From Alphaproteobacteria bacterium (GTDB lineage Bacteria; Pseudomonadota; Alphaproteobacteria; Rs-D84), in NCBI GenBank assembly GCA_017513285.1, contig JAFXGD010000075.1, forward strand, positions 1-40,959: DNA of 40,959 nt. Direction: 5' to 3'. This document shows, piece after piece, positions 2,581 to 11,342 of the stretch. Positions within the stretch are counted from its first letter, which is position 1. Each line of letters begins with the position of its first letter. The notes below the pieces were generated by a model, which saw nothing but the letters and a program-made list of their open reading frames with translations, was not told the origin of the DNA and did not search any database. The position numbers were made by a program, and so were the translations under genes.

Positions 2581-4401
2581 TCAGAACAATTTGAATTTGT
2601 AATTTGTTCCTGCGCGGAATGTGACGTTGGAATCTGCCAAACCTGCGGCTGCATTTACAGACCAGTTATCTGTCAGACCCATTGCTGCACCCAATGCAAC
2701 TGCGGATTGGCTGTTATAATATCCATAACCACCACCAACAGAAACTTCACCTTTGGCAACATTAGATACCGCAACCGAAGACATTGCTGCTGCACTTGCA
2801 ATACCTGCTGACAATTCTTCTTCCAGCGCATCTACTTTTTTATCGGTATAATCATACGCAGACTTCAAAGACATAGTGTTTTTAGCATCTGCATATGCTT
2901 TGGCGGCTGACAAAGTCATTTCATCGCCTGCGATACGATTTGCAACCTCTTCTTCGATTTCCGCTGTATTCAATGCAATCTTGCCGTCTAATTCTGCTTC
3001 GGCGGCCGTCGCACGTGCAACTTCGGATTCAATTGCAGTCTTGTTTGCAGCAATATTTGTTGCATTTGTTTCGATTGCAGTCTTGTTTGCAGCAATATTT
3101 GTCGCATTCGTTGCAATATTTGTTGCATTTGTTTCAATTGCAGTCTTGTTCGCAGCAATATTTGTTGCATTTGTTTCAATTGCGGTTTTGTTCGCAGCAA
3201 TATCAGATGTGTTCTTGGATACCGCATTATCAATTGTGTTAATCGCACCACTGAATGTTGTTTCATTCCCAGCGATTTCGCCCGTCAATGCGTCTGCTAC
3301 GGCATCTGAATTTGCAGATTCAATACCCAATGTGTTATCAACCCATTGTTGTTTTTCTGCAAAGATTGCTTCTGCATCAGACTGGTTTACTTTCTGGTCT
3401 AATTCAGAACGGATTGCACCACCCTGGGCCAATGCGCTGTCAATCGCATCATTTGCCCCATTGGTTATTGTTTCCAAAATAGGCGCATCATAAACATCTT
3501 TTGCAGCCTGCAACAATGTATCGTTTGCAGCATATGCGTCTTTTGCTACTTGTTGTTTGGCTTGTGCGTCGGCATATGCGTCAGTCGCATCACCAACTGT
3601 TGCAAAGAATCCGTCCAATTCTGCAATTTTTGCACTGTCGTCATTAAATACAGCTTCTGCTGCGGCAAAATTTGCTTGTTCTGTTGTCCATTTGGCCCCA
3701 GTGTCTGTAACAGCGGCATCAACGGCGGCTTTGTCTGCGTTATATGCAGCCTGTGCTTCGTTGAATTTTGTTTCTATTATTTCGCCTGCACCTGGTGTTA
3801 CTGTATTGCCATTTTCATCTAATAATTGTGTACCATCTGCTGATAATGTAAATTTATTGCCATTATCTAATTCAAATGAATACAATGAACCGTCAAATGT
3901 TGTGTCGGCTGCACCATTTGTAATTGTCACTTCTGCACCACCTGCATAATCTGACAAAGTGTGAGTTTCAACCATATCTTGTTCTTCTGCACCCAATACA
4001 ACTTCTTCGCCTGCACCGTTCAAATATGTATAATTATCACGACTTGCTGTTGCACCAGAAACGATTGCCTGTGTCGTTTTTACATTTACACCGTCTGCTG
4101 TTGTATCTGCCCAGAAATCAGATTGTGCCGGCACGCCTGTTGATAAATCAGCAGGATTTCCTTCGCGGTCAGTGTATGTAAAATCTGTCATAGATGGCGC
4201 TGTGTTATGGTCTGCAACAGTTGCAGTCGTACCATCTGATTTTGTATATTCATATGACACACTGGATAATGCGTCAGCAATGTTTGCTTGCGTTCCATCT
4301 GTTTGTGTATATTTACCACCGAACGATATATCAGATGCTGCGTGTGCAGAACATGATATACCTATGGCAACCAATGAAGTCAAAAAAACATGTTTTTTCA
4401 T
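2581..4401 (-). CDS. Trimeric autotransporter adhesin (YadA-like anchor)
   Basis: 606 residues. Residues 1-21 ([21 protein letters not shown]) form a Sec signal peptide. Residues ~25-230 are Thr/Asp/Gly-rich with tyrosine-containing beta repeats. A long Ala/Asp/Lys-rich, probably coiled-coil stalk follows and includes a run of 14-residue repeats of the type [14 protein letters not shown] at about 3030-3210. The last ~80 residues (from about [20 protein letters not shown] to the final KLF) match the YadA-type membrane anchor: a coiled coil leading into four beta strands with a terminal Phe. This architecture implies a trimer secreted through its own barrel (type Vc) and displayed as a surface adhesin; the ligand is unknown. 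It stands alone, between a terminator and an unusual structured upstream region (4428-4719) that may control it. Confidence 0.85.
3030..3210 (-). repeat. 42-base tandem repeats in the adhesin stalk
   Basis: About four imperfect copies of a 42-base (14-residue) unit encoding [14 protein letters not shown]-type sequence, with one seven-residue partial unit (NATNIAT). The in-frame unit of two heptads suits a coiled coil and allows stalk-length change by slippage. Confidence 0.75.
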
Positions 4402-4427: not shown

Positions 4428-4456
4428 AACAAAAACCGTCAAAGGAATTTGACGGT
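4428..4456 (-). terminator. Intrinsic terminator upstream of the adhesin start codon
   Basis: Perfect nine-base-pair stem (ACCGTCAAA at 4435-4443 with 4448-4456), four-base loop, followed in the minus direction by TTTTTGTTT. It lies about 30 bases before the adhesin ATG, so it would stop any transcript entering from upstream. Confidence 0.7.
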
Positions 4457-4560
4457 CAGGGGGTTAAGAAAATCATATCATTGAATGACCCCTGTGGCCT
4501 TTACACATACGTGCTGTTGTATAGCCACAGGCCCCCCGACCAAAATCGGGCAGAAACAAC
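4457..4560 (-). other. Candidate structured RNA leader between a small transcript and the adhesin
   Basis: Read on the minus strand, this stretch folds into a nested structure. An outer helix can form between 4541-4532 and 4463-4454 (GGTCGGGGGG with CCCCCTGACC). It encloses a hairpin of eight base pairs (4531-4524 with 4498-4491, CCTGTGGC/GCCACAGG) topped by a second short helix (ATACA/TGTGT). An alternative hairpin (4550-4546 with 4539-4535) competes with the outer helix, and the outer helix shares three bases with the terminator at 4435-4456. This resembles a leader with alternative folds or a stable small RNA. It matches no riboswitch class I can recognise, and no convincing reading frame is present. 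Confidence 0.4.
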
Positions 4561-4684
4561 GCAAAATAAAAAGCGCATCCGCGCCTTGGTTTACTTATTT
4601 TGCCAAAGTCGGATTCAATGCTCCAAAGAACATCGCAATGATAAAGGATTTCTTACGTCCCCGAGCCAACATCCCTGTTGATTC
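4561..4684 (-). ncRNA. Candidate small transcript, either a small RNA or a leader with a 25-codon frame
   Basis: The unit starts at a good promoter (4691-4719) and ends at a hairpin (4570-4576 with 4581-4587, loop ATCC) followed by TTTATTTTG, giving about 120 bases. Inside is a 25-codon frame, 4672-4595, starting MLARGRKKSFIIAMFF and ending TLAK: basic, then hydrophobic, like a short membrane or leader peptide. However, the only purine-rich ribosome site (CAGGG) abuts the ATG, and the ATG lies in the loop side of a CAACA-GGGA-TGTTG hairpin, so translation is doubtful. It could equally be a stable regulatory RNA. Confidence 0.35.
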
Positions 4685-4690
4685 ACACAT

Positions 4691-4719
4691 ATTATAAAAC
4701 AAAATAAACCAAAATTCAA
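4691..4719 (-). promoter_or_regulatory. Promoter for the small transcript before the adhesin
   Basis: Minus-strand TTGAAT (4719-4714), 17-base spacer, TATAAT (4696-4691), in an A/T-rich region. No protein-coding gene starts immediately behind it. Confidence 0.6.
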
Positions 4720-4740: not shown

Positions 4741-4770
4741 ACACCCCCGTCAAACGACGGGGGATTTTTA
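4741..4770 (-). terminator. Terminator after the large autotransporter gene
   Basis: Eight-base-pair stem CCCCCGTC (4744-4751) with GACGGGGG (4756-4763), loop AAAC, next to the stop codon at 4771. The T run is stronger on the plus strand, so it may act in both directions. Confidence 0.7.

Positions 4771-11342
<6,572 letters not shown>

Follow-up and report, generated by a model that had tools for sequence, protein, structure and literature searches.

A predicted pseudoknotted leader RNA, partly homologous to sRNA-Xcc1, precedes an adhesin gene and many other accessory genes in gut Alphaproteobacteria

What is encoded in the gap between two genes for large surface proteins, and does it act on either of them? 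The window analysed here is a whole contig of 40,959 nucleotides (JAFXGD010000075.1) from a member of the Alphaproteobacteria. On its minus strand, which carries all features of the locus described below, the gap between a large autotransporter gene (stop at 4771) and a trimeric autotransporter adhesin gene (2581..4401, ATG at 4401) comprises a promoter, several hairpins and a terminator. The adhesin, which has a YadA anchor (PF03895, E 1.2e-10), is the putative regulated gene, and its ATG lies ~32 nt 3′ of the terminator stem. An earlier note on this DNA had proposed a promoter, a separate small transcript and a folded RNA that it could match to no known class, possibly a new leader of the adhesin gene or else one or two stable small RNAs. 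The promoter-like site is present as described, a sigma-70-type TTGAAT-17-TATAAT (4719-4691; 10/12 matches) with its -10 box 6 nt 5′ of the first helix, as are the two terminator-like hairpins (4457-4434 and 4587-4570). A short open reading frame at 4690 (MCESTGMLARGRKKSFIIAMFFGALNPTLAK) was dismissed by inspection: it begins right after the -10 box, leaves no room for a ribosome binding site (RBS) and overlaps conserved helices. Just 5′ of the promoter, the autotransporter gene ends in a perfect hairpin (4744-4763), which is GC-rich and flanked by T-rich sequence on both strands.

The gap folds far better than chance. A 291-nt stretch reaches -99.4 kcal/mol against -76.3 in shuffled sequences (z -4.8; 0/200 shuffles as good), and the strongly folding stretch that had been placed between the two terminator-like hairpins is borne out, with 4575-4430 surpassing its shuffles at z -3.8. 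The same is not true of the ~120-base unit that had been read as an RNA in its own right. On its own it folds no better than shuffles (z -0.5); to the long-range fold it contributes the 5′ half. The hairpin at 4587-4570 lies inside one pseudoknotted RNA rather than marking the end of the first of two, although a U-rich internal hairpin comes back in the leaders of some relatives.

Comparison with relatives provides the structure. We aligned 46 full-length homologous leaders with MAFFT, covering the helices P1 to P6, P6a, the pseudoknot PK and the terminator. Across the whole structure, 88.3% of cells are paired (72.7% when shuffled), two-sided changes number 455 (157 when shuffled), and the covariation score is 0.448 against 0.192, a value reached by 0/500 shuffles. 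Sliding the partners by one column reduces paired cells to 30-46%. Both helices singled out in the earlier note exist in relatives: 4541-4532/4463-4454 (P1) is paired in 98.8% of cells and mostly invariant, and 4531-4524/4498-4491 (P6) carries two-sided changes at all eight pairs. The strongest covariation, however, belongs to a helix absent from that note, the long-range pairing of 4655-4636 with 4483-4465. Among 87 copies, the 5′ strand scores 27.2 with its own partner and 19.8 (sd 3.2) with that of another copy; this and all other pairing scores given here are simple base-pair scores, not free energies. The strands follow one another as long-range 5′ strand, P1 5′ strand, long-range 3′ strand and P1 3′ strand, the last two being adjacent. 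Judged from these comparisons, positions 4684 to ~4430 are a single RNA, predicted to fold, together with P1, into a large pseudoknot of the H type.

The whole leader RNA (4430..4684) is delimited by its predicted start at 4684 and by the end of a U tract at ~4430, and covariation extends over its full length. It would open with a 5′-terminal hairpin, P2 (4663..4684; 4684-4677 with 4670-4663, loop GGGA), which shows two-sided changes in 7/8 pairs and 91.6% paired cells in the alignment. The P3 hairpin follows (4646..4662), and its loop UAAGAAA (4655-4649) pairs with 4471-4465 to form PK, with 95.6% of cells paired and 15-29 two-sided changes among the 46 copies at 3/5 pairs. The 5′ strand of P4, the address helix (4636..4645), pairs with 4483-4476. 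Next comes the P5 region (4561..4636), a hairpin at 4636-4616 and a stem-loop (4604-4595/4569-4561) around the terminator-like hairpin 4587-4570; a helix in the equivalent position is conserved in the alignment, with highly variable length. An alternative strand, GCCCGAU (4545..4551), mimics the P1 3′ strand and would be able to capture the P1 5′ strand, GGUCGGGGGG (4532..4541), whose core is almost invariant. P6 (4491..4531; 8/8 pairs covary) has a conserved internal loop, UAUACAACA, and an apical helix, P6a. The hairpin H7 (UCA...UGA; 4465..4489) presents the A3 strand, which comprises the 3′ arms of P4 (4483-4476) and PK (4471-4465). The last bases of the P1 3′ strand, CCCCCUGACC (4454..4463), double as the 5′ arm of the intrinsic terminator, GACCGUCAAA-UUCC-UUUGACGGUU followed by the U tract (4434..4457). 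Unpaired bases are highly conserved in P6 (AUA-AA-A) and ahead of the P1 3′ strand (AAC).

The leader is neither rare nor confined to adhesins. A first survey found copies in 27/40 relatives, one of them with 33. Using a covariance model, R1, built from the 3′ domain, whose E-values are rough as for any home-made model, and counting one genome per species, we found the leader in at least 134/142 genomes sampled from the window's order, often with at least ten copies, and in at least 32/289 genomes sampled from its class, three belonging to the window's own genus; high copy numbers are lower bounds, since the number of candidates scored was capped. Named records with the leader are mostly metagenome-assembled genomes of ruminant and other gut Alphaproteobacteria. 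The window genome itself has ~12 type-1 copies and at least two of a second subtype, and its copies precede lipoproteins, an outer membrane protein (OMP), autotransporters and a type III methyltransferase-like gene. In relatives, downstream genes encode secreted and surface proteins, members of OMP, YadA and autotransporter families, glycosyltransferases, LicD and DNA methyltransferases, and 93/128 downstream proteins pass a crude signal-peptide test. An open reading frame starts a median of 48 nt after P1 (interquartile range 44-53) in 159/162 copies, with a Shine-Dalgarno-like motif in 137.

Several of these contexts invite separate remark. By sequence inspection, the second subtype precedes small XRE-like regulators; with its GAAUAUAUUGAAUAA loop it stands ahead of several of them at L066 and L068-L072 (genomes G003 and G022), which suggests leader-controlled regulator batteries. 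In genome G014, several leaders lie less than 800 bases from contig ends (contigs C3, C4, C6, C13, C22 and C32), so that such repeats probably cause breaks in assemblies, and copy numbers come out too low. The sole viral contig with the core pattern (IMG/VR 3300029904_000303, L241, 5058-5079) has it ahead of a secreted-protein-like open reading frame, and may be host DNA or the edge of a prophage. A 4-kb contig labelled Clostridia (CALVNY010000012.1, L146) has the alphaproteobacterial leader pattern and is probably mis-binned. Between ribosomal-protein-like genes on another contig (C79; L002, 1690-1770 and 2280-2310), a recurring GTAGTGTAC...GCTACATGA motif with complementary arms looks like another recurrent structured leader.

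How might such an RNA act on the gene behind it? In 36/46 homologous leaders, a TATAAT match of at least 5/6 lies exactly 6 or 7 nt 5′ of P2, and transcripts therefore probably start at the first base of P2, position 4684 here. At the other end, the terminator begins inside the P1 3′ strand in 76/90 alphaproteobacterial copies, as against 0.5% in shuffled sequences. The overlap of outer helix and terminator that the earlier note had pointed out is found at the locus itself, where P1 and the terminator have 4457-4454 in common. Between RNA and gene stands an intrinsic terminator, some of whose bases also belong to an alternative helix, as in attenuators of the terminator type. The mimic strand pairs with P1 better in its own copy (17.8 over all copies) than when swapped (14.1) or placed far upstream (11.6); in the window copy it is short and weak (15.0 against 14.2 swapped).

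For the alphaproteobacterial form, a leader acting by transcription attenuation is the best reading, and it is likely that 4684-4430 is a single cis-acting leader that would control the adhesin in this way. Should an early hairpin of mimic strand and P1 5′ strand persist, the P1 3′ strand would stay free and the full terminator could form; RNA polymerase would then stop before the adhesin, leaving an RNA of ~250 nt. Should the pseudoknot form, P1 would gain its 3′ strand through strand exchange at the cost of the terminator's lower pairs, and transcription would read into the adhesin gene. Which fold prevails might depend on kinetics, on a protein or a ligand, or on terminated copies of the same leader that pair with it in trans. 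The polarity of this switch is deduced from the shared bases only. Because the overlap of P1 and terminator spans only 4 nt, P1 might form alongside a shortened terminator, and the RNA could be chiefly a small RNA that ends there. On the comparative evidence, and with a helix competing with the terminator, the leader probably switches the adhesin gene on or off. The attenuator-like part of the original suggestion is supported by these comparisons; the RNA is not tied to adhesins, being a multi-copy leader of many accessory genes.

Of the helices, P4 varies most between the copies in one genome. In G014, its base pairs are identical in 33% of copy pairs, compared with 59-98% for P2, P5, P6 and P1 and 48% for P6a; G127 shows the same trend, with some P4s common to several copies. 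The clearest case is a pair of duplicates (L042 and L048) in which 2/110 core columns differ as against 13/22 P4 columns, both arms being still complementary. In the orthologous adhesin leader of a sister species (L024, genome G006), P4 differs in four pairs, three by two-sided and one by one-sided change, and is still paired. Pairing of P4 appears only partial in the alignment (64% in its outer half), a figure that understates it because MAFFT does not align by structure. Between copies within a genome, cross-pairing scores 8.1, the same as in shuffled sequences (8.3) and with no avoidance below chance, while own pairing scores 18.0. P4 is, on this comparison of copies, private to each of them, and would serve as a copy-specific address, probably keeping the leaders of one cell from pairing together. 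Relaxed constraint alone is not expected to yield the divergence of P4 in so recent a duplicate, and we infer either that diversifying selection favours pairing specific to each copy or that some exchange mechanism is at work.

Does the leader belong to a known family? At Rfam gathering thresholds nothing matches it, and only two tRNAs are found in the window. A permissive scan of the region returns sRNA-Xcc1 (RF02221) at 41.9 bits (E 3.6e-6), below that family's gathering threshold of 53 bits, with model positions 1-87 all matched. The closing helix, P6 with its AUACAA internal loop and the second hairpin of the sRNA-Xcc1 consensus are all there, supported by covariation. Where the earlier note had found no matching class, the RNA does match one in part, through this sub-threshold sRNA-Xcc1 in its 3′ third. 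The 3′ third is, by sequence and predicted fold, a diverged sRNA-Xcc1. In Xanthomonas, sRNA-Xcc1 was detected by Northern blot as an RNA of ~88 nt (PMC2996969) and sits upstream of symE in integron cassettes (PMC12444791). There is no SymE in the window genome, so the leader there is not a symE leader.

For comparison we used 30 loci of sRNA-Xcc1 drawn from the phylum, each scoring above the curated cut-off; 29 belong to classes other than that of the window. Both groups share P1, P6 with an AUACAA-type loop, H7 and the P1 3′ strand, and although the Rfam model spans only 87 positions, the bona fide loci also have the same 5′ partner strand (own 31.3, swapped 24.0 over the 30 loci). Their outputs differ. 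Alphaproteobacterial copies have P2 and a P1-overlapping terminator in addition and stand before an entirely different set of genes, whereas a terminator after P1 occurs in 1/30 bona fide loci, and that one lies outside P1. In the bona fide loci, the A3 strand instead shows complementarity to the RBS region of the gene that follows (own 23.9, swapped 18.2; 40% above the 95th percentile), a pairing that is at chance in alphaproteobacterial copies (16.7 against 16.0 swapped). With RBS pairing in one set and a terminator in the other, we see one core with two output devices. Ten recognisable-looking next genes, when scanned, gave SymE (two), Bro-N (three, and one below cut-off), KilA-N, P22_AR_N and Rha (two). 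A UAAGAAAA match near the window's own RBS was rejected, being lost in the sister species L024. BLAST of one sRNA-Xcc1 locus against phage records gave no match. About 1 kb from one sRNA-Xcc1/Bro-N-like locus (L289), there are two TwoAYGGAY RNA matches barely above threshold (2372-2494 on the minus and 2791-2857 on the plus strand), and 1.3 kb from an sRNA-Xcc1/P22_AR_N locus (L283) there is a sub-threshold c4-2 match (2890-2958, minus strand), which brings two antirepressor-linked RNA types close together.

Other explanations of the alphaproteobacterial leader have to be set against transcription attenuation in cis. That it is a dispersed mobile or repetitive element of no regulatory role is hardly credible: a 1-Mb genome can hold as many as 33 copies, some of them where contigs end, but their orientation and distance to an open reading frame are always alike, compensatory changes maintain the structure, and copies diverge at the very sites at which those of a mobile repeat would be identical. 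The near-constant distance from a same-strand start codon (159/162 copies) also speaks against an independent small RNA gene that merely lies ahead of an adhesin with its own promoter, as does the retention of leader and adhesin together in the sister species. The RNA does have its own promoter and terminator, and the family of its 3′ third has been described as a trans-acting small RNA, yet we find this reading quite improbable. A classical riboswitch, in which the P6 internal loop, P3 and the junctions would make up a binding pocket whose ligand, a metabolite or an ion, stabilises the pseudoknot, seems unlikely too, if less so. The complex pseudoknotted fold, the highly conserved unpaired bases and a strand-exchange platform with a terminator would all suit it. 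Against it, the genes downstream, for adhesins, OMPs, lipoproteins, glycosyltransferases, DNA methyltransferases and XRE-like regulators, share no common pathway and suggest no ligand candidate; further, the predicted transcript start, fixed at the first helix, is unusual for the class, and the P6 loop differs between subtypes.

Self-regulation in trans is a serious possibility, though we would not favour it. Here, terminated or processed fragments would pair through P4 and PK with nascent leaders, but only with those of their own locus, and attenuation would thereby depend on dosage; the private P4 would be a specificity code, like the a′ loop of the C4 RNA of phages P1 and P7. The privacy of P4, the ~88-nt RNA on the Xanthomonas Northern blot, and the complementarity of the sRNA-Xcc1 A3 strand to the RBS regions of SymE, Bro-N, KilA-N, P22_AR_N and Rha genes are consistent with this. 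On the other side, alphaproteobacterial copies lack the RBS pairing, relaxed constraint could also give private helices, and cross-pairing is at chance, not lower. Attenuation in cis remains our preferred reading. More tentatively, and doubtful as a whole, we speculate that a large phage-linked leader family (sRNA-Xcc1 and its 5′ partner) was domesticated in gut Alphaproteobacteria with reduced genomes as a genome-wide set of locus-insulated attenuators, whose hypervariable, self-complementary address helix, under diversifying selection, would give each of 10-30 genes a C4-like, copy-specific feedback.

What was an unexplained gap now reads as a structured leader RNA. Nearly all genomes sampled from this order of gut bacteria have it, ahead of genes for surface proteins, envelope modification and DNA modification. 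For sRNA-Xcc1, hitherto called a trans-acting small RNA, the newly seen 5′ partner supplies a concrete cis context, and so, outside the window's class, does complementarity with the RBS in front of genes of the SymE and antirepressor types. As P4 is wholly different between otherwise identical copies, the leaders provide a natural test of how cross-talk is avoided among many near-identical RNAs in the same cell.

Among known systems, RfaH with ops/JUMPstart and LoaP with EAR are antitermination systems whose 5′ elements also stand ahead of surface and accessory genes. The leaders described here differ in that they mostly precede short single genes, and no NusG paralogue was found as an RfaH- or LoaP-like partner, each of 21/21 genomes having a single NusG. 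With riboswitch and attenuator leaders they share a conserved pseudoknotted domain followed by a terminator that uses bases of the closing helix; they differ in matching no known class of these, in their heterogeneous regulon, in a predicted start fixed at the first helix, and in a private long-range helix. The C4 antisense RNA of phages P1 and P7 is a small structured leader RNA, processed and involved in phage immunity, whose variable loops set its target (PMC5320573). The C4 models (RF01695; c4-2, RF02944; compare the c4-a1b1 motif of Weinberg 2010) matched none of the RNAs when 10 sRNA-Xcc1 loci were scanned at E<=0.5, and RF01695 and c4-2 gave no match in the window region at E<=5. The likeness is one of arrangement: as in phage P1 C4, the sRNA-Xcc1 loci of other classes show antisense complementarity to the downstream RBS. 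In the lineage of the window, by contrast, this complementarity is at chance, the predicted output is a terminator, and the genes that it would regulate are accessory genes of the host.
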